From Thermomicrobiaceae bacterium (GTDB lineage Bacteria > Chloroflexota > Chloroflexia > Thermomicrobiales > Thermomicrobiaceae), in contig JADBJL010000090.1 of NCBI GenBank assembly GCA_014874455.1, forward strand, positions 1-64,000: a stretch of 64,000 nt of DNA, read 5' to 3'. How positions within the stretch are numbered: the first letter of the stretch is position 1; each line of letters starts with the position of its first letter. Made by a program: the position numbers and the translations under genes. The notes beneath the pieces are model-generated. The model saw only the letters and a program-made list of their open reading frames with translations. It was not told the DNA's origin and made no database searches. Shown here in pieces: positions 26,512 to 63,093 of the stretch.

Positions 26512-26586
26512 TCCCCGATAGCTCAACGGTAGAGCAGGCGGCTGTTAACCGCAAGGTTGCAGGTTCGAATCCTGCTCGGGGAGCCA
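26512..26586 (+). tRNA. tRNA-Asn (anticodon GTT)
   Basis: The plus strand folds as a cloverleaf with acceptor TCCCCGA/TCGGGGA, anticodon loop CTGTTAA giving GTT, T loop GGTTCGAATCC and an encoded CCA end. It marks the left border of the gene-poor accessory region, and the adjacent hydrolase pseudogene stops right at its 3' end. Confidence 0.95.
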
Positions 26587-27262: not shown

Positions 27263-27429
27263 CGACGGACTCGATGACGGGTGCTATATCTGCCTCCTCC
27301 GTTCGCGGCGACGGTTCACGCACGCCGGTTTCGACTGGCCATGCTGATGACCTCCGACAATTCTAGGGGACATCTAAGTGGCGTCTCCGCGAACCCGTCA
27401 CCATTGACATCGCATCCGCAGCATCATGG

Positions 27430-27605
27430 GGCAGGACTCGGTGTACAGCTCGCCAATCGCACTACCGCTACGCAAAAGACGATGAGCGCATGCACGTCGA
27501 TCGCGTCGAAGCTACCAGCCGAAAGTGCGCGCGATCAGCTCTTCGCCGACGCGCAGGAGCAGCGGTGAGCCGTGCGGGCAGACCGCCAGCGCCGTAGTGT
27601 GGCTG
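27430..27605 (-). pseudogene. second, partial copy of the mutL 3' end and preceding small gene
   Basis: Positions 27481-27603 match 56158-56280 (C-terminal part of intact mutL) with about 8 differences in 123 bases. The last 26 encoded residues, from CPHG through the terminal FGW, are unchanged, so most differences are silent. Positions about 27437-27475 resemble the start of the small gene at 55993 (AI.ELY), with the intergenic bases between largely missing. It is a gene remnant, not a functional mutL. Confidence 0.75.
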
Positions 27606-27862
27606 CGCTTCTTGAGACGGTTGAACCCCTGGTTGACGGTCCTGGTTCAAGCGATGCTCTTCGGTACCGTGCACGCCGTCCGTATGATCGGGATCGTCCG
27701 CGTCGCGGTTGAGGCGACTGGGTCTTCCTCTGACCAACTGTCACCCGCCTGGTGCGGTGCTCTGTCTGCTCTTGCTGCAGCTCTATTCTCCCGGCCTGGT
27801 ACATTCGCTGGGATAACAGCTTTCTCGTGGCCGTCCAGGCTGTGCTGGGGCTCGATCTGTCG
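27604..27862 (+). pseudogene. remnant of a CPBP-family intramembrane protease (tentative)
   Basis: The plus strand encodes RFLRRLNPWLTVLVQAMLFGTVHAVRM, which has the FGxxH and Trp/Gln pattern of CPBP (CAAX-processing/bacteriocin-processing) membrane proteases. A later segment in another frame (NSFLVAVQAVLGLDLS, then stop at 27862) could be its C-terminus. The frames do not join, so it is non-functional. Identification rests on short motifs. Confidence 0.4.
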
Positions 27863-30300: not shown

Positions 30301-30346
30301 GCACCAGACGCGGTCCGGTGGGCATGACCCGGACCGTGCCTGGTGC
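30301..30346. repeat. 18-bp imperfect inverted repeat
   Basis: Arms 30301-30318 and 30329-30346 pair with one mismatch and one G-U around a 10-base loop. There is no T run on either side. It could be a terminator for the cupredoxin gene (minus strand) or the end of a lost mobile element. Confidence 0.55.
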
Positions 30347-30432
30347 ACCCAAATCGTGTGTCTTGCTGCCTCGGCGTCGATGGCGGCGTTCCAGGCCCGC
30401 CAGCTGGTGCACCCAAATCGTGTGTCTTGCTG
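30340..30432. repeat. two exact copies of a 29-bp sequence, 64-bp period
   Basis: The same 29 bases (starting CTGGTGCACCCAAATCG) occur at 30340-30368 and 30404-30432, separated by 35 unique bases. The first copy begins inside the right arm of the adjacent hairpin. Unit sizes resemble a one-spacer CRISPR, but there are no cas genes and no further units. Confidence 0.75.
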
Positions 30433-41140: not shown

Positions 41141-41950
41141 ATGGTGCTGCCCTTGGATCTCGCGACGCTCGTTCGGATGGTCGGCTACGCTGGCGTCTTC
41201 GCCATCGTCTTCGCGGAGTCTGGGCTCCTGATCGGGTTCTTCCTGCCGGGTGACAGCTTGCTCTTCACGGCAGGCTTCCTGGCCTCGCAAGGAGCACTCG
41301 ACATCCGCCTGCTCGTGCCGCTCTGCTTTATCGCCGCGGTGGCAGGCGATGCCGTCGGCTACGCGTTCGGCTACCGCGTGGGCCGGCGGCTCTTCCAGCG
41401 CGAGGACTCCTGGCTCTTCCACCGCGAACACCTCGTGCGGGCGGAAGCGTTCTTCGCCCGTCACGGCGGTAAGGCGGTCGTCCTGGCACGCTTCCTGCCG
41501 GTTGTCCGCACGTTCACCCCGATCGTGGCAGGGATGGGCGCGATGCGCTACCCGCGCTTCGCGGCCTTCAACGTGCTCGGGGCGCTGCTCTGGGCGGTGG
41601 GCGTAACACTAGCCGGCTACGTCCTGGGTAACGTGGTGCCCGGCGCGGATCGGTACCTGCTACCGATGATCCTCGCCATCATCGTCGTCTCGAGCGTCCC
41701 GAGCCTTCTCCATCTATTGCGTGAGCATCGGGAGGAGGTCCGGGCGCGACTGCGCGGTGTGAGCCGCATCGGCGTCGCCCTCGGGCTGGGCGCTGCCCTC
41801 CTCCTCGGACTGGCTGCGCTCGGCCTCGCCGTGCGAGGCGACTACCTCGCCATCGACGAGCCGCTGGCGACGGGCATCCAGGCGCGGGCGGCCGGCCTGC
41901 TCGGGGAGCTCTTCGGGTTGCTCAACCGGTTGGGGAGCCTGCCGGTCTAG
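41141..41950 (+). CDS. DedA-family membrane protein (fused PAP2 part disrupted)
   Basis: DedA/SNARE-associated proteins are polytopic membrane proteins linked to lipid (undecaprenyl phosphate) transport. The core is visible: VFAESGLLIGFFLPGDSLLFTAGFLASQG, the FxRHGGKAVVLARFLPVVRTFTPIVAGMG motif and several helices. The DedA domain ends near residue 210, and the frame runs on through a further helix to a TAG at 41948. The same frame then encodes a PAP2 phosphatase domain, so the ancestral gene was probably a DedA-PAP2 fusion. The DedA half itself looks intact. Confidence 0.8.
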   Translation: MVLPLDLATLVRMVGYAGVFAIVFAESGLLIGFFLPGDSLLFTAGFLASQGALDIRLLVPLCFIAAVAGDAVGYAFGYRVGRRLFQREDSWLFHREHLVRAEAFFARHGGKAVVLARFLPVVRTFTPIVAGMGAMRYPRFAAFNVLGALLWAVGVTLAGYVLGNVVPGADRYLLPMILAIIVVSSVPSLLHLLREHREEVRARLRGVSRIGVALGLGAALLLGLAALGLAVRGDYLAIDEPLATGIQARAAGLLGELFGLLNRLGSLPV

Positions 41951-50153: not shown

Positions 50154-50183
50154 ATACCTGATGCAGCATGCTGCATCAGGTAT
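50154..50183. promoter_or_regulatory. 30-bp perfect palindrome between the cupredoxin and small secreted protein genes
   Basis: The two 15-base halves (left half ATACCTGATGCAGCA) are exact reverse complements without a loop. There is no T run after it, so a simple terminator is unlikely. It may be an operator for a dimeric repressor or an RNA-processing or attenuation hairpin, 36 bases upstream of the next start codon. Confidence 0.6.
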
Positions 50184-51153: not shown

Positions 51154-51373
51154 CATATTCTGAACTGACCCGCCGTCGTCCTCAGCAGGCACGCAGCCTT
51201 ATGTTAGTTGCCACTGAGCTGGCGGTACGACAATGGAGACAGCGGGTCTGTTTGCCTGACGGGCGTGCCGGTGAGCCTTGCTGCTCGGGCGGAGGCATGG
51301 GTACCGTGGCCAGTTATTCCAAACGTGTCGTGATCTCTAGAGTCCCGTGGGGAGAAAGGGGTGAAACCGTATC

Positions 51374-51726
51374 GCTGTGACGCGGAGGATTCCTGACGCA
51401 GGTCTGGCACTGCTCGCTGAGGCAGCCGAGGTGGTCGTCTGGCCCAAGAGCCTGCCACCGAACCGCGAGGAGCTGATCGGATTGGCGGCCGGGGCGGACG
51501 GGCTGCTCACCCTGCTGACGGAGCGCGTGGATGGAGAGCTGCTGGACGCCGTGCCGACGGTGCGCGCTGTGAGCAACATGGCCGTGGGTTACGATAACAG
51601 CGAGGTCGAGGCTGCCATCGCCCGTGGAGTCATCGTCTGTATCACGCCCGATGTCCTCACCGAGACCACGGCAGACTTCGCCCTCGCCTTGATGCTCGCG
51701 GTGGCCCGCGCGAGATCGGCGGTGTC
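51374..51726 (+). pseudogene. truncated 5' copy of the 2-hydroxyacid dehydrogenase gene
   Basis: Positions about 51374-51598 match 60871-61095 with only about 3 differences, whereas 51599-51712 match the next part of the intact gene at roughly 78% with conservative amino-acid changes. Translation follows RRIPDAGLALLAEAAEVVVWP to TADFALALMLAVAR, then similarity ends. The start codon region differs. It is a fragment of a paralogue or of a foreign homologue, partly converted to the resident sequence. Confidence 0.75.
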
Positions 51727-52382
51727 CGCCTTGGCCGCCTCGAGCTCGATGCGCGGCTTCTCGCCCCGGCCGGTCAGCCGGCGTCCGCACGCGGAGCAAG
51801 CGCAGCGGGGGAGATGTCAACTCTAACCGCTAGTTCGTGCGCCCCTATCGTTTCCAACGCCTGCAACCGGCCCGCTTCATTGCCGCCACCTGGCTCTCCT
51901 GTCCCCCTACGAGGGCGCACGAACGGCTTGCCGATCAGCCACGTCGCGGGAGGTAGCGTCCGCTACAGCGGCGGGTTGGGCAGCCCATAACAAAGAGCTG
52001 GCTACCGTTCTATGCGGTCGTGCGCAACCTCAAGGTTAGACGGATCACCGTAGCCCTCCAGATGACCACGTGACCCAGCCCCGCCTCTCTGCACACAACT
52101 TGACGCACTACCTTCCCGCTGCTCCCAACGTTGGAAGAAAGGGGCAAAACGATTCCAGAAGGCGTGCAAACGCTCCGGCCGACCGCTCATCCGAAGGGGT
52201 TTGTACGGGCGGGTCGCCGACCCGCCCCTGCGGCGAAGAACCCGCAGCGGTTGGCCGGATGCTACAAGGAAACTCCAGCAACTGTATATATGGTCATTCA
52301 CCTCCCAGAGACTGAATTCTGGTCCTCTCTGGGGGATAACACTTTCAGCGACCGGAATGGCATGTAAAACATCATTGCAGTA
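51727..52382. other. gene-poor stretch right of the dehydrogenase fragment
   Basis: I see no intact gene. On the minus strand near 51795 a short Cys-containing piece (RCACSACGRRLTGRGEKPRIELEAA) could be a zinc-ribbon remnant. From about 52250 the sequence becomes AT-richer and leads into the LVIVD lipoprotein gene. Confidence 0.4.
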
Positions 52383-54514
52383 CTAGGGTATGCGACGAAA
52401 GATATATAGCCCGTGGAAGGGTGCAACAGCGAAGACCAAATCTCCAACCATGTCCACAGCCCAAATGTCCAACATATCGGGGGCATGTCCTACATAGACA
52501 AGATTCTTCGGATCCGAAACGTCATACGCTATCGCGGGGCTCAAAAGCAGAATGTTGCCTTCCTTCTCCAATGCTGGATACCCGGCACTCTTTGCAATAT
52601 GTGAAGCTACTTCCACTGGCTGGGTGGGGTTGGTAAGGTCGTAAACCTTCAGGGTTGGTGGGGTGCCTAAAATATTCAGATAGAGGTATCTCTGATCCGT
52701 AAGAATAGCGGTGAGATTGCCTCGCTCGGCCTCTGGAATGGGAATTTTCGTTATTTCCACAGGTTTGAACGGGTCCGTAAGGTCGAAAATGCGCAACGAA
52801 AGCGGTTCAGGCTGCTTATCATCTATTGTGCCATCCATCGCATAAAGATAATGGTCATAAAGGGCCAATCGCCAGTGCTCATTGGGCACATCTACAAACT
52901 CGACCGCCTTGGGCTGAGTAGGATCGGAAACATCCACCACCCAAAGCCCATTGCCCGGATAGAAGGCATCCGGTCCACCCGAACCGGAAAGGTAGGCAAC
53001 CTGACCATAGAGCACAATGTCGTTAGCGCCGTCCGAAGCAGTAGGATCGTGAACGGCGCCCACCTCCACAGGATTCCGTGGGTCTGAGACGTCATAGATG
53101 CGCAGTGGATAATTCGAGTCTGAAACGTAGGCGTAACCTCCTTCAACCACCAAGCCGCTTGGATCTTGAAGGTAGAGGTCCTTACGCTTGTCATCATAGT
53201 ACACCTCGTGCGGAGTAGTCGGATCGGAGACATCCACCACGCGAAAGCCGCCGTTCCTGCCCACCACATACGCGTACTTTCCCTCCACCCTGACCGCCAC
53301 CAGCAAATCAGGCAACGGGGTTTGGTAACGGCCAACGCGCAGCGGTGCGCCACTGCTGACATCCACCAAAGTTAGCCCATACGCCGGGTCGGTCACAAAG
53401 ACGAGGTTGTCCTGCACAGCAACCCCACGTTCTCCAAACTCATGCACCGAGAGTTCGAACTCTCCAACCACGGTTGGCAACATGCCCACCTGCGAGGGGC
53501 GATCAGGCGTACTTATGTCCAGCATATAGACACCATCCATATCATCTACCAAATACACCATATTCCCTCTTGAGGCCAGCCCAGAGGCAGCAGAGGTGTC
53601 GAAATGCCCCGCAAAAGTCGGCTGCACTGGATTGGAGACATCCAGGATGACGAGGCCATCCTGGCGGGCGGCCAGACACAGCCGATTGCCACAGGCACGA
53701 ACTTCGGAAAACATGGGAGAAATGCCGAACTGGCTTACATTGCCGGGAACCTCCTTGGCACTGAAGTAGCCCACTTGACGGGGATTGGATGGGTCGGAAA
53801 CATCCACGATGGTCAGATTCCATTTGGTGGTATCCACCAGATAGGCAAACGAACCGATGACCGCAATGGAGATAAAAGGTCCCTTGACTTGACCCATGCT
53901 CCACACACGCGGCTGTTGCGGGTTGGCGATATCCACGATGAATAACCCTCTGTTACATGCCAGATAGGCAATATGTTCGTGGACGGCCATACTACTGCAA
54001 CCGCCCACCTTGGATTGAATGGAACTGACCAAAGCCGGTTTGGCGACATCGCGAACATCTAGAATGTGTAATCCGCCATAATGGTAGCCACGTAGGCATA
54101 CCCATCGGCAACGTGCACGCCCCGCACCGGGCCGCTGCGCAGTACCTCGCTCATCCCCATCAAGCGCGGCGCGCTGGGCTGGGAGACATCTAAGGTGATC
54201 AGACGTGGTCCCTGGCCCAGGTAAGCAATGTTTCCCTCCACAGCAACCGCATACGCACTGCCACCGATCTGCCCCAGAAGATTGAACGGGCGCCCTTCTT
54301 CGCTAGGTTCGGGCGTGACCGCGGCGATGGTTCCTACGATGGTGGAGATGGGTGTCTCTGCGCTTGTTGGCTGTTCCGGCGGCAGAGCAGTCCCTTCCGG
54401 CTCTTGCGTGCCCTGCTGAGAGGGGACAGGGGGCGTTGCTGTTGGCGTAGATGCTGGCGCGCAGGCAAAGAGAATGAGCGTAGCAATCAATACCAAAATC
54501 GATCTGCGTATCAT
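52383..54514 (-). pseudogene. LVIVD-repeat lipoprotein with a frameshift
   Basis: A large exported beta-propeller-like protein. The N-terminus is MIRRSILVLIATLILFACAPAS with a lipobox before Cys18, then a Pro/Thr linker. About 13 repeats of the type LxIVDVSDPxxPxxVG (LVIVD repeat) follow. The frame breaks near 54076-54088: the N-terminal part runs into MADYTF and stop, while a one-base change gives a smooth AT-HYGGLHILDV. The rest is open to 52383. ATG 54514 has AGGAGG 9 bases upstream. Sequence is clearly AT-richer than neighbours. It may be a real frameshift or a sequencing error. Confidence 0.75.
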
Positions 54515-54529
54515 CGTTCTCATCCTCCT

Positions 54530-54706
54530 AGAGCGGCTAGGCCGCCCAACGGCCCGCAGTTCAGCGGCGGCCGCGGAACGTTGCGAGGAGGGGGTGTGCT
54601 CCCCCATCTCCAGCCGGGCCACCTGCGGCTGCCGCATCCCCAACTTCGCTGCGGGCTGCGTTCGCGTGAGGTGGTGCCTGACTAAGTAGCCGATTAGGGC
54701 GAACAC
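54530..54706 (-). pseudogene. remnant of an XRE-type HTH (antitoxin-like) gene
   Basis: The minus strand encodes LVRHHLTRTQPAAKLGMRQPQVARLEMGEHTPSSQ, an XRE helix-turn-helix typical of HigA-like antitoxins and phage repressors, then loses similarity. It ends against the LVIVD lipoprotein start. The partner toxin is not recognisable upstream. Confidence 0.5.
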
Positions 54707-55254
54707 GGTGCACTCCCAGGAAGCACGGGAGGCCGGACCCCGCTGGCGCTATCGCGCGCGGATCGCGGTGGTGCTCCCCAGCCGGGTCTGCACCATACCT
54801 TGTCTCCTCTCCTGCTCGAGCCGAACGAGCCGCGCCTCGGCCGCGCGGATCACCAGCCCCAAGTCCCGGGGCGACGCGCGCCTCGAGCTGATCGCGCCAT
54901 GCGTAGCGTGATACCGACGGGCCGGTAGAACGCACGCCACGAGCTGCAGCCAGCGCGCAGGTCGAAGCTCCCGAAGTCGGGCCGCCCCTTTCACGGTGGG
55001 CATGCGGCGAGGAGGGCCGGTCGTCGTACACCCCCAGGCTTCTCGAACGCATGGTGCATCGCGGCGGCTCGGCAGCGAGGAGCGCTCGCACGTGTTCCTC
55101 AGCCTCGCGGCGAACTTCGACGCACAGCGGACGATAATACCACGCTCGTTCTATGCTCGGGTAGCTGCAGAGAGCGGGCGGGGTCGGCTGAGTCTACCCG
55201 GTTCGCACCCGAGACGCCGCCTCAGGTGCTGGGCAGGGGTGCGAGAGCGGTCTC
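54707..55254. other. stretch without recognisable gene
   Basis: Several minus-strand frames are open but share no motifs and lack ribosome sites. This may be decayed mobile-element sequence. Confidence 0.4.
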
Positions 55255-55680
55255 CTACGCCGGGGCAGGATTCGCTGGCGGGCACACGCCCGCCAGCGCT
55301 CGCTTCTGCTCTCCCGCGGGCAGCGTGAGCACGGGAGGGAGCATGCGCTCACTGACGAGCAGCCGCGGCAGCGGATCACCCAGCGCGGCGATGGCGTGGA
55401 CGATCCCGGGGGCGAGGTCAAGCAGGCCCAAGATTCGGGTGACGCGGGCGCGGGTTAATGCCGCAGTTGCGGGCTAGGTCAGCCCAACAGGCGCACTCCC
55501 CACACTCAGCATGCCGTGCCACACCTGCGCCAAGGCGATGGGATAGCGCTGCTGCCTGGCGGGACGCGCCGGCCCTGGCGGCTTGAAGCGGTCGGGGGCT
55601 CGGTGCTCTCGAAGTGGTACTCCAGCCGCGTAGCTCCCCGCATGGCCAGCGTGGCGCCCAGCGAGGAGTGTTAGATTGAG
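55255..55680 (-). pseudogene. remnant of a recombinase-associated HTH protein
   Basis: One minus-strand frame reads LTRARVTRILGLLDLAPGIVHAIAAL, then LVSERMLPPVLTLPAGEQ; another gives PIALAQVWHGML. Together they resemble the small ParB-HTH-like proteins found beside site-specific recombinases in phage-like elements. The pieces are in different frames and no start is seen. It suggests a lost mobile element. Confidence 0.45.
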
Positions 55681-55768
55681 GGAGAAAGTTCGGGATTTCC
55701 CCCGCCTCGGGGAGCGAAGCGAGCCGGACGAGGTCAACGCCGGACGGCGGTTACCATCTCTCGAGCGA

Positions 55769-55993
55769 TCACGAACGCTCGCTCAGCCGACCATCCTCAT
55801 CTTCGGGCATGTCCCAGTAGTCATAGAGTGTCAGGCGCCAGTGGCCCTCACCCTCATCCTCACCGATCATTCGCGTATAGGAGTCGAGCGTGTATGCGAA
55901 GCCGGGAGTGTCGGCCGCCTCGATCGCTTCGATGGCTTCATCGAAGGAATCGAAGTACAGCTCGCGAATCGCGTTACCGCGACTGTCGTTCAT
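55769..55993 (-). CDS. hypothetical acidic protein, 74 aa
   Basis: I do not recognise the family. It is rich in acidic and aromatic residues (SFDEAIEAIEAADTPGFAYTLDSYTRMIGEDEGEGHWRLTLYDYWD). ATG 55993 follows a GAGG-type site. It lies 195 bases downstream of mutL on the same strand. A degraded copy of its start is seen beside the mutL fragment at 27.4 kb, so the gene-mutL linkage is old. Confidence 0.65.
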   Translation of the reverse strand: MNDSRGNAIRELYFDSFDEAIEAIEAADTPGFAYTLDSYTRMIGEDEGEGHWRLTLYDYWDMPEDEDGRLSERS

Positions 55994-56188
55994 CGCCAGC
56001 CTCGCTTTCCCCTCTCATCCTCGGAATTCGGTGTCGCTCTGAAACCAAACGCGACGCGCTCGAACATGTCGAGCCGATCCAGTCATGAGCGCGCGCTCTG
56101 TTGGGGCGAGGGTGCAGGCTGCTGTCGAGCTCAACAGGTACGGCGACGCCGCCAGAGGATGGGCGCATGCACGTCGATCGCGTCGAAG

Positions 56189-57916
56189 CTACCAGCCGAA
56201 GGTGCGCGCGATCAGCTCCTCGCCGACGCGTAGGAGCAGCGGCGAGCCGTGCGGGCAGACCGCCGGTGCCGCAGTGTGGCCGAGCGCCTCGACCAGCGCC
56301 CGCATCGCCGGCCGCTCGAGCGGTCGACCCCGCCGCACCGCGGTGCGGCAGGCGAGTTCAACCCAGAGGCGCTCCTTCCAGGTCTCGCCGGCCGCCTCCT
56401 CGTCGGCCAGCGCCAGAAGCGTCTTCAGCAGTTCGTCCGGCTGCCCTAGCGCGGCCAGCGCGTCGCCGGAGAGCCCGGGGAGCACGCCAGGCATCGGTGG
56501 AGCCGCGCGTAGGAGGAAGGTGTGTGAGCCGAAGACCTCACAGCGGAAGCCGAGCGCGGCCAGTTCCTCGAGCCGCCGGCTGAAACGCGCGGCTTGGGTT
56601 GGCCTCAGCTCGATCAGCAGTGGATCCGGGAGGACGAACGGCTCCTCGCCTTCGGCTCCGTGCAGGGCCTTGAGGCGCTCGTAGAGGATGCGCTCGTGCG
56701 CCCGATGTTGATCGACCAGGTAGAGGCCATCCGAGCCCTCCAGCAGCACGAGCCGCGCCTGCACCTGTCCGATCAGGCGAAGCGGCGGTAGGCCAGGGGT
56801 GATGAGCGGGCCATCATCGTCGTAGGCGCTCGATTCCTCAGCGACCAGGGGCGCTGTGGCCAAGGGGTCGAAGCCAGCTCGTGGCAGTAGCTGGAGGGAG
56901 CGGGCACGCCGCCCGAGAACGGTACGGATCAGCTCTCCCGCTGCCCTGCCGATCTCCTGCTCCGCCAGGAGTCGCACCTCGAGCTTCGATGGGTGGATGT
57001 TGACGTCGACCTTCTCGGGTTCGGTCTCGATCACCAGCACCAGCACCGGGTGACGACCGCGCGGCAGCAATGGCCGGTAGGCGGCCTCGAGCGTCGCGAG
57101 CAGGCCACGTGGCTGCGTCCAGCGGCCATTGACGATGACGTGTATCTGGTTCCGCCCCGGGCGAGTCACCTCCGGGTCCGCGATCAGCCCCGAGATACTG
57201 GCTCCGGCGACCGCGATCGGGCCCAGGGGCTGAAGCCTTCCGGCCAGTGCCGGCCCGTAGAGCTCGATTACGGTCGTTGCCCGATCGCCGGAGCCGCTCG
57301 TCTGCAGCACCTGTCGCTCGTCGACGATCAGCGTCATCCGGACGTGCGGCGCGGCCAGCGCCAGCCGGCGCACAGTCTGGCCGATCAGGGCCACTTCGGC
57401 TTGGGGACGCCCGGCTGCAGCCAGCCGCGCCGGCATGTTCTGGAAGAGGCGACGCACGGTCACCGTGGTACCGCGCGGTCGCGGGGCCGGCTCGTCGACC
57501 GCGACGGTGCCGTCGCGGAGCGTCAGCCGCCGGCCGACGCCGCTGTCGTCCGCTGCGCTGACCAGCGTGAGCTCGGCCACTGCCGCGATGCTGGGCAACG
57601 CTTCGCCCCGGAAGCCGAGCGTGCGAATCTGGAGCAGGTCGTCTCCCGGCAGCTTGCTGGTGGCGTGGCGCTGGCAGGCGAGCGGCAGCTCCTCCGGCGG
57701 GATCCCGATGCCGTCGTCGCTGACGCGGATCAAGGTCAGGCCGCCGCCGCGCACTTCGACCCGAATCTCGCGTGCCTCGGCGTCGAGTGCGTTCTCGACG
57801 AGCTCCTTGACCACTGAGGCCGGTCGCTCGATCACCTCGCCGGCGGCGATGCGCGCCGCGAGCGAAGGCGGCAGTACTCGGATCGGCCGGCGAGCTCGCT
57901 CGTGCGCACTGGTCAT
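56189..57916 (-). CDS. mutL: DNA mismatch repair protein MutL
   Basis: MutL couples mismatch recognition by MutS to downstream repair. The GHKL ATPase domain has AAGEVIERPASVVKELVENALDA, DDGIGI and TLGFRGEALPSIAAV, then the transducer domain and a C-terminal dimerisation domain with PHGSPLL near the end. The classic endonuclease motif DQHAxxExxxxE is present as DQHRAHERILYE. Length is 575 residues from ATG 57916; ATG 57925 is possible. It lies 46 bases after mutS, forming one operon. Confidence 0.95.
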   Translation of the reverse strand: MTSAHERARRPIRVLPPSLAARIAAGEVIERPASVVKELVENALDAEAREIRVEVRGGGLTLIRVSDDGIGIPPEELPLACQRHATSKLPGDDLLQIRTLGFRGEALPSIAAVAELTLVSAADDSGVGRRLTLRDGTVAVDEPAPRPRGTTVTVRRLFQNMPARLAAAGRPQAEVALIGQTVRRLALAAPHVRMTLIVDERQVLQTSGSGDRATTVIELYGPALAGRLQPLGPIAVAGASISGLIADPEVTRPGRNQIHVIVNGRWTQPRGLLATLEAAYRPLLPRGRHPVLVLVIETEPEKVDVNIHPSKLEVRLLAEQEIGRAAGELIRTVLGRRARSLQLLPRAGFDPLATAPLVAEESSAYDDDGPLITPGLPPLRLIGQVQARLVLLEGSDGLYLVDQHRAHERILYERLKALHGAEGEEPFVLPDPLLIELRPTQAARFSRRLEELAALGFRCEVFGSHTFLLRAAPPMPGVLPGLSGDALAALGQPDELLKTLLALADEEAAGETWKERLWVELACRTAVRRGRPLERPAMRALVEALGHTAAPAVCPHGSPLLLRVGEELIARTFGW

Positions 57917-57962
57917 GCCGGCCATCTCCTCGCGTCGAATGACCTCTCAGCCGTAGCTGCTC

Positions 57963-60650
57963 CTACGTCGTCGTCTTCCCGCGGAGCCGGGCCTGCTGCT
58001 CGAAGAGCCAGTCCAGCGCCTCCCGCGGGGTCATGCTGGTCAGGTCGAGCGCGCAGAGCTCGCGGGCCAGCCGCTGGCTGGCGTTCAAGCTGGGCTGGAA
58101 ACCGGCGAGCGTGAGCTGGTACGCCGCACGCTCACGCCCTTCAGCGACCTGGTCAGTCGTCGCCGGTTCCTCGCGTGGCGGCGCGAGCCGGCATGTTGAC
58201 TGACCCACGGTCAGCTCGGCGAGCAGCGTCTCCGCTCGCTCGGCTACCCAGGGCGGCAAGCCGGCCAGGCGGGCGACTTGGATGCCGTAGGCGCGGTTCG
58301 CCGGTCCGGGGCGCACCGCATAGAGGAAAATGACCCGGCCGTCTCGCTCCAGCGCGGCGACGTGCACGTTGGCCACCCCCTCCAGCTCTTCCGCGAGCGC
58401 CGTGAGCTCCAGGTAGTGCGTGGCGAAGAGCGTCCTGGCACCGATCCGATTATGGATATCCTCCAGCACCGCGCGGGCGATGGCCATCCCATCGTGGGTG
58501 CTGGTGCCGCGGCCGACCTCGTCGAGTATGACCAGGCTGCGGCGGGTCGCCTGGTGCAGGATCGTGGCGGTCTCTACCATCTCGACCATGAAGGTGCTCT
58601 GGCCACCAGAGAGGTCGTCCTGAGCGCCGACCCGGCTGAAGATGCGATCCACCAGGCCGATGCGTGCCTCAGCGGCGGGCACGAACGAGCCGATCTGGGC
58701 CAGGAGGACGATCAGGGCTACCTGGCGGAGGTAGGTGCTCTTCCCACCCATGTTCGGGCCTGTCACCACCAGCACGCGCGGCCCGTCGCCGCCCAAGTGG
58801 CAGTCGTTCGGGATGAACGGCTCGCCGGCCAGGCTGGCCTCGACGACCGGGTGACGCCCGGCCACGATGTGCAGGACGTCGCTCTCTTCCAGAACAGGAG
58901 CGACCCAGCCCCGGCGGGCCGCGACCTCAGCGAGCGCGAGTAGCGCATCCAAGAAGGCGATCTGGCCCGCAGTCTGGAGCAGGCGCCCGGTGTGCGCCGC
59001 GATCTCGCCGCTGAGCCGTGCCAGCGCCTCCCGCTCGAGCGCTGCGATCTCCTCCTCGGCGGCAAGGATACGAACCTCTGCCTCCTTTAGAGCTGTCGTG
59101 ACGTAGCGCTCGCCGGTGGCGACCGTCTGCCTGCGGATGTAGTCCGGTGGAACCAGCGGCAGGTTCGGGCGCGTGACCTCGATGTAGTAGCCGAAGACTT
59201 TATTGTAGCCGACCTTGAGCGAGCGAATCCCGGTTCGCTCGCGCTCCTTGCGCTCGAGCGTCGCGAGCCAGTGGCGCGTCTCATAGATCTCAGCGATAGC
59301 CGCATCCAGAGCCGGGCTGAAGCCAGGCCGAATGCGGGCGCCTTCAGCGTCTTCGACCACGGCTGAGTCGATCAGTTCCTGGAGATCTGCACAGGGATCG
59401 ATCTCCTCCGCGAACTGGCGCAGAGCTGGGGCGCTGGCGTGCCCGAGGTGCTCGACGAGCGCCGCGGCCGCACGTAGCGAGGCGCCGAGCGTCAGGAAGT
59501 CGCGGACTCCGGCTAGCCCCTGCGTGACCCGACCGGTTAACCGCTCGAGGTCGCCGGTGCTCAGAAGCTGCCGCGCCAGGCTAGCGCGCAGGCTGCCGTC
59601 AGCGACCAGGGCCGTGACGATGGCCTGCCGGCGCTGCAGCTCGGGGAGATCGCACAGCGGCCTGCCCAGGAGCCGGCGCAGAGCTCGGGCACCCATCGCG
59701 GTGCGGGTCTCGTCGAGCACGCCGAGGAGGCTGCCCCGGGTGCCGCCGGTGCGGAAGCTGCGCGTAAGCTCCAGGTTGCGCCGGGTCGCGGCGTCGAGCC
59801 CCACGCGGTCTCCAGTCGACTCGGCCCGCAGGCCCGTGAGGAGCGGCAGCAGCGCCGGGTTGGTCCGGTTCAGGTAGGCGAGAATCGCGCCGGCCGCGCC
59901 GGTTGCCGCGGGCTTCTCGTCACAGCCATAGGCTGCCAGCGAGCGGACGCGGAAGTGCTCCATCAAGCTGCTGCGGGCGCGCTCAGGGTCGAAGTGCCAG
60001 TGCTCGAGGCGGGTCACGTGGCCGAGCAGCGGCGGGCTCGATTGCAGGGTATCCGGGACCAGGCACTCCGCGGGGTCGAGGCGCGCGAGCTCCTCAGCCA
60101 ACTGCGTTTCGGCCTCTGTGCCACGGAGTTCGATAACGGCGAACTCTCCGGTGCTGACGTCTACCCAGGCCAGGCCCAGCCGCTCGCCATGCGGGTAGAC
60201 TGCAGCCAGGTAGCGGTTCTCTCCAGCCGGTAGGAGCGCCGGCTCGGCGACGGTGCCAGGTGTCAGCACGCGCGTGACGGCACGCTCGACCAGCCCGCGC
60301 CCCGGCTCGCTGAGCTGTTCGGCGATCGCGACGGTGTGTCCTGCAGCGAGGAGGCGAGCCAGGTAGTGATTGAGCGCGTGGTGAGGGATGCCCGCCATCG
60401 GCACACGACCGTTGCGCCCGAAGCTGCGCGAGGTGAGCGTGACACGCGCATCCCTGGCGACGATGCGCGCGTCGTCGTCGAAGGCCTCGTAGAAATCGCC
60501 CAGCCGGTAGAGCAGAATCGCGTTCGGGTACTGGCTCTTGAGGTCGAGGTACTGCTGGCGGGAAGGCACGAGCTCGGGCATCGCCCGGTGCTCGCCCGCC
60601 TGCGATCGCTTCCGTGCCGCCCTGCGCCGGTGGGTCGTCTCTCGCGTCAT
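57963..60650 (-). CDS. mutS: DNA mismatch repair protein MutS
   Basis: MutS recognises mismatches and small loops. The mismatch-binding domain carries the Phe-x-Glu motif as GDFYEAF. The ATPase domain has the Walker A GPNMGGKST, the DDLSGGQSTFMVEM signature and Walker B VILDEVGRGTST. Length is 895 residues from ATG 60650. A TATAAT box sits only 7 bases upstream of this ATG, so the transcript may be leaderless; ATG 60581 (MPELVPSRQQYL) is the alternative start. Confidence 0.95.
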   Translation of the reverse strand: MTRETTHRRRAARKRSQAGEHRAMPELVPSRQQYLDLKSQYPNAILLYRLGDFYEAFDDDARIVARDARVTLTSRSFGRNGRVPMAGIPHHALNHYLARLLAAGHTVAIAEQLSEPGRGLVERAVTRVLTPGTVAEPALLPAGENRYLAAVYPHGERLGLAWVDVSTGEFAVIELRGTEAETQLAEELARLDPAECLVPDTLQSSPPLLGHVTRLEHWHFDPERARSSLMEHFRVRSLAAYGCDEKPAATGAAGAILAYLNRTNPALLPLLTGLRAESTGDRVGLDAATRRNLELTRSFRTGGTRGSLLGVLDETRTAMGARALRRLLGRPLCDLPELQRRQAIVTALVADGSLRASLARQLLSTGDLERLTGRVTQGLAGVRDFLTLGASLRAAAALVEHLGHASAPALRQFAEEIDPCADLQELIDSAVVEDAEGARIRPGFSPALDAAIAEIYETRHWLATLERKERERTGIRSLKVGYNKVFGYYIEVTRPNLPLVPPDYIRRQTVATGERYVTTALKEAEVRILAAEEEIAALEREALARLSGEIAAHTGRLLQTAGQIAFLDALLALAEVAARRGWVAPVLEESDVLHIVAGRHPVVEASLAGEPFIPNDCHLGGDGPRVLVVTGPNMGGKSTYLRQVALIVLLAQIGSFVPAAEARIGLVDRIFSRVGAQDDLSGGQSTFMVEMVETATILHQATRRSLVILDEVGRGTSTHDGMAIARAVLEDIHNRIGARTLFATHYLELTALAEELEGVANVHVAALERDGRVIFLYAVRPGPANRAYGIQVARLAGLPPWVAERAETLLAELTVGQSTCRLAPPREEPATTDQVAEGRERAAYQLTLAGFQPSLNASQRLARELCALDLTSMTPREALDWLFEQQARLRGKTTT

Positions 60651-60656
60651 GAGGCG

Positions 60657-60662
60657 ATTATA
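60657..60662 (-). promoter_or_regulatory. TATAAT box directly upstream of mutS
   Basis: A perfect -10 hexamer ends 6 bases before the mutS ATG at 60650, which would put the transcription start at or next to the start codon. The -35 region is weak. If so, the mRNA is leaderless. Confidence 0.5.
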
Positions 60663-60860
60663 CCGACCACTTACCGGATCAGTGACCGGCCGGCACAACA
60701 GGAAGTGGGCGCTCGGTCGAGGGCATCGCCTACACACATGGCGGGTGCTAGCGTAGTCGACCGCTCTGTAGTCAACATAACGCATGAAGTGACCTCGACC
60801 TGCTAGCATTGTCCAGCATCAAGGTGGCTTCTAGAATCCCACATGATGAAGGGAGGCGCG

Positions 60861-61844
60861 ATGCGTATCGCTGTGACGCGGAGGATTCCTGACGCAGGTC
60901 TGGCACTGCTCGCTGAGGCAGCCGAGGTGGTCGTCTGGCCCAAGAGCCTGCCACCGAACCGCGAGGAGCTGATCGGATTGACGGCCGGGGCGGACGGGCT
61001 GCTCACCCTGCTGACGGAGCGTGTGGATGGAGAGCTGCTGGACGCCGTGCCGACGGTGCGCGCTGTGAGCAACATGGCCGTGGGTTACGATAACATCGAC
61101 GTCGAGGCCGCGACCACTCGAGGTGTCGTCGTCTGCATCACCCCGGACGTACTGACAGAAACGACCGCCGACTTCACCTTCGCTCTGCTGCTGGCGGTCG
61201 CTCGCCGAGTCAAGCCGGCCGCCGATGCCGTGCTCCGCGGAGAGTGGAAGACCTGGGAGCCGCTGGGGTTCCTGGGCCAGGACGTGTACGGATCGACGTT
61301 GGGGATCATTGGGATGGGCCGCATCGGGCAAGCGGTGGCTCGCCGTGCTCGTGGTTTCGCGATGACGATCCTCTACACCGATCAGGCACCGAGGCCCGAG
61401 ATCGAGAACGAAGTTGGCGCCCGCTTCGTCGGCATCGACCAGCTTTTGCGGGAGAGCGACGTGGTGAGTCTCCATGTCCCTCTCACCAGAGAGACCCGCA
61501 AGATGATCGGGGCTGAGCAACTCCGAATGATGAAGCGCTCGGCCATTCTCATCAACACCGCACGAGGAGGGGTCATCGACACCGAGGCGCTGGCCGACGC
61601 GCTGGAGAGCGGCACGATCTGGGCAGCGGGCTTGGACGTGACCGATCCAGAGCCGCTACCGGCCGACCATCGCTTGCTTCGCCTGCCGAACGTGCTTGTG
61701 ACCCCGCACATCGCGAGTGCCAGCGAGGTGACGCGCACGCGGATGGCACGGCTTGCGGCAGAGAACCTGCTCGCCGCGCTGCGCGGAGAGCGGCCTCCGC
61801 GCTCAATCAACTGGGAGGCTGTACGTGGCCACGCGCAGTCGTAG
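60861..61844 (+). CDS. D-2-hydroxyacid dehydrogenase (glyoxylate/hydroxypyruvate reductase-like)
   Basis: NAD(P)-dependent reductase of 2-oxoacids. The Rossmann motif is GIIGMGRIGQAVARRARGF; the catalytic Arg lies in NTARGGVID and the His in TPHIASAS. Length is 327 residues, like glyoxylate reductases and shorter than SerA because it lacks an ACT domain. ATG 60861 follows GGGAGG. The first 225 coding bases are nearly identical to the fragment at 51.4 kb. Substrate (glyoxylate, hydroxypyruvate or phosphoglycerate) is not certain. Confidence 0.9.
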   Translation: MRIAVTRRIPDAGLALLAEAAEVVVWPKSLPPNREELIGLTAGADGLLTLLTERVDGELLDAVPTVRAVSNMAVGYDNIDVEAATTRGVVVCITPDVLTETTADFTFALLLAVARRVKPAADAVLRGEWKTWEPLGFLGQDVYGSTLGIIGMGRIGQAVARRARGFAMTILYTDQAPRPEIENEVGARFVGIDQLLRESDVVSLHVPLTRETRKMIGAEQLRMMKRSAILINTARGGVIDTEALADALESGTIWAAGLDVTDPEPLPADHRLLRLPNVLVTPHIASASEVTRTRMARLAAENLLAALRGERPPRSINWEAVRGHAQS

Positions 61845-61860: not shown

Positions 61861-63093
61861 GTGCGTGTCGTTGTGACCGGAATGGGAATCGTCTCGCCTA
61901 TCGGGAGCGACCTACCGACAGTCTGGCAGAGTCTGCTGGACGGGCGGTCGGGGACGGATCTCGTGACCCGTGTGCACGTGAGCGACCTGCCCAGCCGGAT
62001 CGCAGGCGAGGTGCGCGACTTCGACCCAGTTCACTGGCTGGGCCCGAAGGAGGCGCGTCGCACCGACCGCTTCATCCAGTTCGCCGTTGCCGCTGCCCGG
62101 CTGGCGCTCCAGCAAGCCGGACTGGAGATTGCCGGTGACCTCGCAAATCGAACTGCGGTGATCATCGGCAGTGCGCTGGGGGGAATGGAGACGATCGAAC
62201 GCGAGCTAGGCGTCCTTTTCACTCGCGGGCCGTCGCGCGTGAGCCCCTTTCTGATTCCGATGTTCCTGCCTGACATGGCCGCGGGCTACATATCGATCGT
62301 TACTGGCGCGCGTGGGCCGAACTTCTCGACGCTTTCGGCCTGCGCGAGCGGGGCTCACGCGATCGGCGAGGGAGCCGAGATCATCCGGCGGGGGCAGGCT
62401 GACGTCGTCCTCGCTGGGGGGAGCGAAGCGGCCATTACTCGTGGGATCATCGCTGCCTTCTGCGCTCTCCAGGCGTTGTCCACCAGGAACGATGAGCCAC
62501 GAACGGCCAGTCGTCCCTTCGACCTGACTCGGGACGGATTCGTGATTGCGGAGGGCGCGGCTGTGCTGGTGCTGGAACGGCTCGACCATGCCCTGGCGCG
62601 TGGGGCGCTGATCCTCGCTGAACTGACAGGTTATGCATCGACGGCCGACGCGTACCACATCGTCCAACCGTGTGCCAGTGGAGAAGGGGCGGCGCGCTGC
62701 ATGCGGCTCGCCATCGACGATGCCGGACTCACGCCGGGGGACATCGACTACGTGAACGCGCACGGAACCTCGACGCCGCTGAACGACGCGGCGGAGACCA
62801 CGGCGATCAAGGCGGCCTTCGCCGGACATCGGATTCCCCCGGTCAGCTCGACGAAGTCGCTGACCGGGCACCTGCTGGGCGCGGCCGGCGCGGTGGAGGC
62901 GGTCTTCGCGATCCTGGCCTTGCAGCATCAGGTTATCCCGCCGACCTGGCACCTGCGCGAGCCGGATCCGGCGTGCGATCTCGACTATGTCCCAGAGGGG
63001 CCTCGGCCGGCGCGGCTGCGCCACGCCATGAGCAACGCCTTCGGTTTCGGCGGGCACAATACCTCGCTGATCTTCAGCCGCTACGAGGAGTAG
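61861..63093 (+). CDS. fabF: beta-ketoacyl-ACP synthase II
   Basis: KAS II elongates acyl-ACP by Claisen condensation with malonyl-ACP. The protein starts VRVVVTGMGIVSPIG, has the nucleophile Cys161 in LSACASGAHAIGEG, and the two catalytic His residues in NAHGTSTPLND and KSLTGHLLGAAGA. Length is 410 residues. GTG 61861 has AGGAGA 8 bases upstream; the longer frame would run into the dehydrogenase gene. It lies 16 bases after that gene. acpP and fabH are not in the window. Confidence 0.94.
   Translation: MRVVVTGMGIVSPIGSDLPTVWQSLLDGRSGTDLVTRVHVSDLPSRIAGEVRDFDPVHWLGPKEARRTDRFIQFAVAAARLALQQAGLEIAGDLANRTAVIIGSALGGMETIERELGVLFTRGPSRVSPFLIPMFLPDMAAGYISIVTGARGPNFSTLSACASGAHAIGEGAEIIRRGQADVVLAGGSEAAITRGIIAAFCALQALSTRNDEPRTASRPFDLTRDGFVIAEGAAVLVLERLDHALARGALILAELTGYASTADAYHIVQPCASGEGAARCMRLAIDDAGLTPGDIDYVNAHGTSTPLNDAAETTAIKAAFAGHRIPPVSSTKSLTGHLLGAAGAVEAVFAILALQHQVIPPTWHLREPDPACDLDYVPEGPRPARLRHAMSNAFGFGGHNTSLIFSRYEE

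Follow-up and report, generated by a model that had tools for sequence, protein, structure and literature searches.

A chimeric dehydrogenase fragment and an imported mutL–mutS pair beside tRNA-Asn in a Thermomicrobiaceae genome

The window, a stretch of 64,000 nucleotides within a 163-kb contig of a 114-contig draft genome, contains an intact D-2-hydroxyacid dehydrogenase gene (deh; 60861–61844, + strand) and, to its left, a partial copy of the same gene whose identity to it falls abruptly part of the way along. Which of the two copies is the mosaic, and what recombination produced it? Our reference for the resident lineage was the sister genome Thermomicrobiaceae MAG G003 (locus L025), 92–93% identical to the window genome in flanking DNA; the other congeners were Bacterium HR26 (G002, L026; 75–82% in flanking DNA) and Thermalbibacter longus (G001, L024; 73–80%). 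The fragment (51368–51709, + strand) aligns without gaps to 60864–61205 of the intact gene, as a direct repeat. From 51368 to 51599, the copies differ at two positions (51485 and 51526) in 232 bp (99.1% identity), and from 51600 to 51709 at 29 positions in 110 bp (73.6%). The original prediction recognized the duplicated stretch, its pattern and the ~99% identity of the first part, but it placed the limits at 51374–51726, gave lengths of 225 and 115 bp and put the second part at ~78%, which understates its divergence. It also stated that the protein is conserved across the divergent part, and the mismatches there do lie chiefly at third codon positions. Its abrupt switch is borne out as well: one breakpoint explains 71 of the 76 sites diagnostic for resident or HR26 alleles (0 of 20,000 shuffles), which rules out chance similarity and gradual divergence.

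Similarity ends abruptly at both edges of the fragment, on the left at deh codon 2 and on the right after codon 115. AAC stands where the ATG should be, with an in-frame TGA directly before it, and the fragment therefore lacks the native start codon. At 51485 and 51526 it carries the base common to G003, HR26 and T. longus, and these two changes therefore arose in the intact copy. No third deh-like copy occurs in the 3.37-Mb genome. The fragment matches PF00389 at 68.5 bits (cutoff 24.6), and the best NCBIfam match of the intact protein is glyoxylate reductase at 400.6 bits, under its cutoff of 455, so the gene is named at family level only.

Alignment with relatives resolves which copy is the chimera, a point that the original prediction had left between the two. 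Apart from its identity to the intact gene, the first part of the fragment (51368–51599) is 89.7% identical to G003 and 79.3% to HR26, whereas the second (51600–51709) is 91.8% identical to HR26 and 72.7% to G003. The intact gene is nearest to G003 over both compared parts (88.8% and 92.7%) and over its whole length (88.3% versus 79.0% to HR26). For 51368–51599, a tree placing the fragment beside HR26 was rejected (p-AU 0.0003, with a program warning that replicates were low for the AU test); for 51600–51709, a tree placing it beside the intact gene was rejected (delta lnL 34.7). These rejections support the suggestion that a resident allele and a foreign one recombined by crossover. By both identities and trees, the fragment is the chimera, with deh codons 2–78 of resident type and codons 79–115 of Bacterium HR26 type. 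Within the coding stretch compared, a chimeric origin of the intact gene was rejected, since that gene follows G003 on either side of the break; judged by the same comparisons it is resident from codon 2 on, but lies directly behind foreign upstream DNA. The switch at codon 78/79 falls inside a 23-bp run (51590–51612, + strand) that is identical in the resident and HR26 genes and is the longest such identity within codons 1–120 of alleles that are otherwise ~21% apart. Four amino-acid differences are private to the foreign part, among them GYDN-SE for GYDN-ID at conserved residues, and none to the resident part; the fragment also has private bases at 51600 and 51604.

The foreign DNA upstream of the intact gene is extensive. 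HR26-type DNA runs from 55706 to the start of intact deh and comprises a small orf, mutL (56189–57925, − strand; TIGR00585), mutS (57963–60809, − strand; TIGR01070) and the intergenic region. Its left edge is the last ten bases of a tRNA-Asn gene (CTCGGGGAGC), within a 20-bp att-like sequence (55706–55725, + strand) that includes native downstream bases and is the same in T. longus; besides 26575 and 55706, the 10-bp core has a chance occurrence at 41900. mutL is 95.3% identical to HR26 and 84.1% to T. longus, and mutS is 96.3% and 82.5% identical, respectively. Elsewhere, identity to HR26 is 75% over the 10 kb from 64001 and 80–82% over the first 12 kb of the window. The repair genes are thus closer to another species than their flanks are (95–96% versus 75–82%), and on these identities mutL–mutS is shown to be an import from an HR26-like source. 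The block ends at a second breakpoint at the deh start codon (60855–60871, + strand), between the last HR26-type site (60854) and the first G003-type site (60872). The match to the fragment begins at the equivalent of 60864, within this interval.

Relatives reveal what the locus looked like before rearrangement. The gene order is tRNA-Asn, (orf), mutL, mutS, deh in T. longus and in HR26, where the locus is divided between two contigs that are identical over 99 bp at their ends, and tRNA-Asn, mutL, mutS and deh also lie together in G005, from another genus of the family. We refer to this repair-gene pair as set A; the window genome has its only set-A mutL–mutS, and its only complete deh gene, at the locus described here. 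A second MutS/MutL pair, set B, occurs across the family and is encoded in the window genome at G000:C36:19060-21663 (MutS, 55% identical) and G000:C60:6412-8151 (MutL, 43%). In the sister G003 (L025 5264–9905, G003:C26), set A has been replaced beside tRNA-Asn by a region with a two-piece tyrosine recombinase next to the tRNA, an ACR3-like transporter and oxidoreductase fragments that by eye resemble molybdopterin oxidoreductase; native similarity picks up again near the mutS start. This recombinase-bearing region makes the tRNA-Asn site a demonstrated target of insertion. No set-A mutS or mutL was found elsewhere in the G003 genome, but set B is kept, which weakens a simple mutator reading of G003. 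Set A was also not found in G006 or G012.

A comparable loss is recorded in the window. The resident tRNA-Asn (26512–26586, + strand; ARAGORN) forms the left border of the rearranged region, and DNA to its left is 87–94% identical to G003. At 27409–27613 (− strand), 24 kb left of the fragment, lies a relic made up of part of the small orf and the final 33 mutL codons, in the orientation of intact mutL. It is 73% identical to 55923–55983 and 87% to 56139–56292 of the intact set, reaching 92.9% over 127 bp, matches MutL residues 545–577 at 82% by tblastn, and has private differences from all other alleles. There is no resident-type mutL for comparison, so the mutL relic is assigned to the resident lineage by exclusion. 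No integrase or tRNA-end repeat was found between tRNA-Asn and this relic. Together, the mutL/orf relic and the truncated deh bracket a ~24-kb island, X (27614–51367), with ancestral order and orientation kept, and their sequences and arrangement show them to be remains of a lost native locus. Island X occupies the place of the mutL body, mutS and the deh start, and is missing there in T. longus and HR26. Set A was lost according to the relics, yet set B is present in the window genome, as in G003. Pfam scans of the main ORFs identify metal-related and regulatory genes in X, namely two P-type ATPases (from ORF translations), ChrB-type and cupredoxin-type genes, two-component systems and a methyltransferase. 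An exact 29-bp direct repeat (30340–30368 and 30404–30432, 64 bp apart) lies between two-component histidine kinase and copper-binding protein genes, and a 30-bp perfect palindrome (50154–50183; ATACCTGATGCAGCATGCTGCATCAGGTAT) immediately follows the cupredoxin-like gene. A search for native deh upstream homology left of the fragment gave just an 11–17-bp match centred on TCTAGA, which is not significant.

To the right of the fragment, segment Z (51710–55705) joins deh codon 115 to the tRNA 3′ end. It is putatively foreign, has a GC content of 53–57% in 52–54.5 kb and has no substantial match in 60 relatives or in plasmids; ORF profile scans and inspection by eye found no clear mobile-element gene in it. 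The LVIVD-repeat gene (52383–54706) has a much lower GC content (53–57%) than its surroundings and is divided between two ORFs, the second of which begins with a weak HTH_3 match. A stretch of ~40 bp of Z (54806–54871) recurs at 85–90% in several genomes of the order.

We propose, with a probability of roughly 60%, an insertion-duplication that introduced HR26-type mutL–mutS after loss of the native pair, with the fragment marking one of its junctions. From the ancestral order tRNA-Asn, (orf), mutL, mutS, deh, island X would have taken the place of the deh start codon, the whole of mutS and the greater part of mutL, as the bracketing relics indicate; to its left the orf/mutL tail would remain, and to its right deh from codon 2 onward. 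A circular molecule of HR26-like origin, with Z, the tRNA-Asn 3′ end, orf, mutL, mutS and deh codons 1–115 on it, could then have integrated through one homologous exchange of Campbell type in the truncated resident deh. This would leave on one side the chimeric fragment (resident codons 2–78 plus foreign codons 79–115) and on the other the foreign mutL–mutS and start codon fused to resident deh. Because codons 2–78 are resident in both copies, a 232-bp gene conversion tract, formed with or after the crossover, would also be needed. Conversion would stop at codon 2, beyond which the truncated resident copy had no homology, and this accounts for the coincidence of the second breakpoint with the left edge of the fragment. 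The observed insert order (deh 79–115, Z, tRNA end, orf, mutL, mutS, deh start) is circularly permuted. A linear native HR26 fragment was rejected as the donor by this gene order, since deh codon 115 must join Z, and Z must join the tRNA end. The most speculative step is the source of the circle, whose layout is as might be expected from aberrant excision of an element in tRNA-Asn, of the kind exemplified by lambda-dgal formation. Several points count against the proposal. No genome with the intermediate (X joined to resident deh, without mutL–mutS) or with Z was found, and none of the 60 relatives or plasmids provided a donor or intermediate match covering Z or the right end of X. Z also yielded no clear mobile-element gene, and the mutL relic is placed in the resident lineage by exclusion.

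The timing of conversion bears on the leading alternative. Because private changes are confined to the foreign part of the fragment, conversion could be later than the insertion. A later ectopic event would go further: an all-foreign fragment would have lain beside mutL–mutS, and its first 232 bp would have been overwritten by the intact resident gene, leaving a resident part that looks younger, free of private changes, next to a foreign part that has them (GYDN-SE). This alternative lies near the gene-conversion option of the original prediction. We regard it as improbable, since it leaves unexplained why the intact-gene breakpoint and the left edge of the fragment fall at the same codon; two independent events would need ends within about 10 bp of each other.

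An effect of assembly or strain mixture, in which the circle remains unintegrated or two populations have been merged at the deh repeat, is distinctly less probable. Contamination of the 114-contig draft is estimated at 4.6%, fragment and intact gene share exact repeats of up to 117 bp (derived from the mismatch positions), long enough to mislead short-read assembly, and a free and an integrated circle give identical local sequences. However, a simple k-mer join does not account for the differences between the copies at 51485 and 51526 or for the bases private to the fragment at 51600 and 51604. The other junctions share just ~8–10 bp, which makes an artificial join of two species less likely, and the locus holds the only set-A pair and only complete deh of the genome. 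From these sequence features, an assembly artefact appears unlikely. Less probable again, and in our judgement very unlikely, is that one large tRNA-Asn element (26587–55705) brought the mutL tail and deh fragment in with it while mutL–mutS was replaced separately by homologous recombination: the att-like tRNA 3′ end at 55706 opposite the intact tRNA at 26512 would fit, but such an element must capture a 99%-identical piece of the host allele already joined to an HR26-type piece, the two codon-2 breakpoints become coincidence, and neither the scanned ORFs nor inspection of the window flanks by eye revealed an integrase (G003 has one at the same tRNA).

The proposed insertion-duplication has parallels in known systems. 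As in Campbell-type integration, a foreign segment in circularly permuted order lies between chimeric part-copies of its target gene. A single crossover on its own would put the switch at one and the same codon in the two copies; the observed switches are at codon 78/79 in the fragment and codon 1/2 in the intact gene, so a conversion tract is needed and the locus works like Campbell-type integration plus conversion rather than a plain case. Transformation yields merodiploids with hybrid junction repeats and mosaic transfer tracts (PMC3784515, PMC13344027), and the likeness extends to hybrid junctions and to short donor and recipient patches tied to stretches of perfect homology. Those are laboratory cases involving sister chromatids or close donors, whereas here the alleles are ~21% apart and a joining segment, Z, is present. 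In Vibrio splendidus, a mobile element lies within mutS and its excision leaves a frameshift (PMC5296598), so that, as here, mobile DNA at a repair gene decides its intactness; unlike in Vibrio, the whole mutL–mutS pair appears here to have been replaced and then regained.

The usual evidence that mismatch-repair genes were lost and then regained horizontally is conflict between gene trees. In Escherichia coli, loss and horizontal reacquisition of these genes have been described (Denamur et al. 2000, as summarized in PMC2837395), and the likeness, on that summary, is of mutL and mutS with a phylogeny unlike that of their neighbours, imported from a relative. Compared with the E. coli case as outlined there, the present locus keeps both relics of loss and junctions of gain, the import would have occurred by insertion-duplication instead of allele replacement, and another mutS/mutL pair has been there all along. 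Regaining repair genes by horizontal transfer thus belongs to a known class of events, and the novelty lies in the completeness of the record; the literature searched gave no comparable description for islands of Thermomicrobia. One contig retains loss relics, gain junctions and recombination endpoints, making the order of events readable and testable. Several genomes of this little-studied family, which has two mutS/mutL pairs, lack one of the two.

A broader and doubtful reading is that in this genus tRNA-Asn/mutL–mutS/deh acts as a recurrent switch, at which islands inserting at tRNA-Asn time and again remove set A, and elements that leave this tRNA by aberrant excision take mutL–mutS to relatives. 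If so, the mismatch-repair pair would move as mobile cargo, with loss and gain alternating.

A separate observation concerns the fabF-like gene at 61862–63093, which is ~82% identical to both G003 and HR26, whereas G003 and HR26 are 90.9% identical to each other. This suggests import of the G003 fabF from an HR26-like source, and by this gene alleles are exchanged elsewhere in the genus too.
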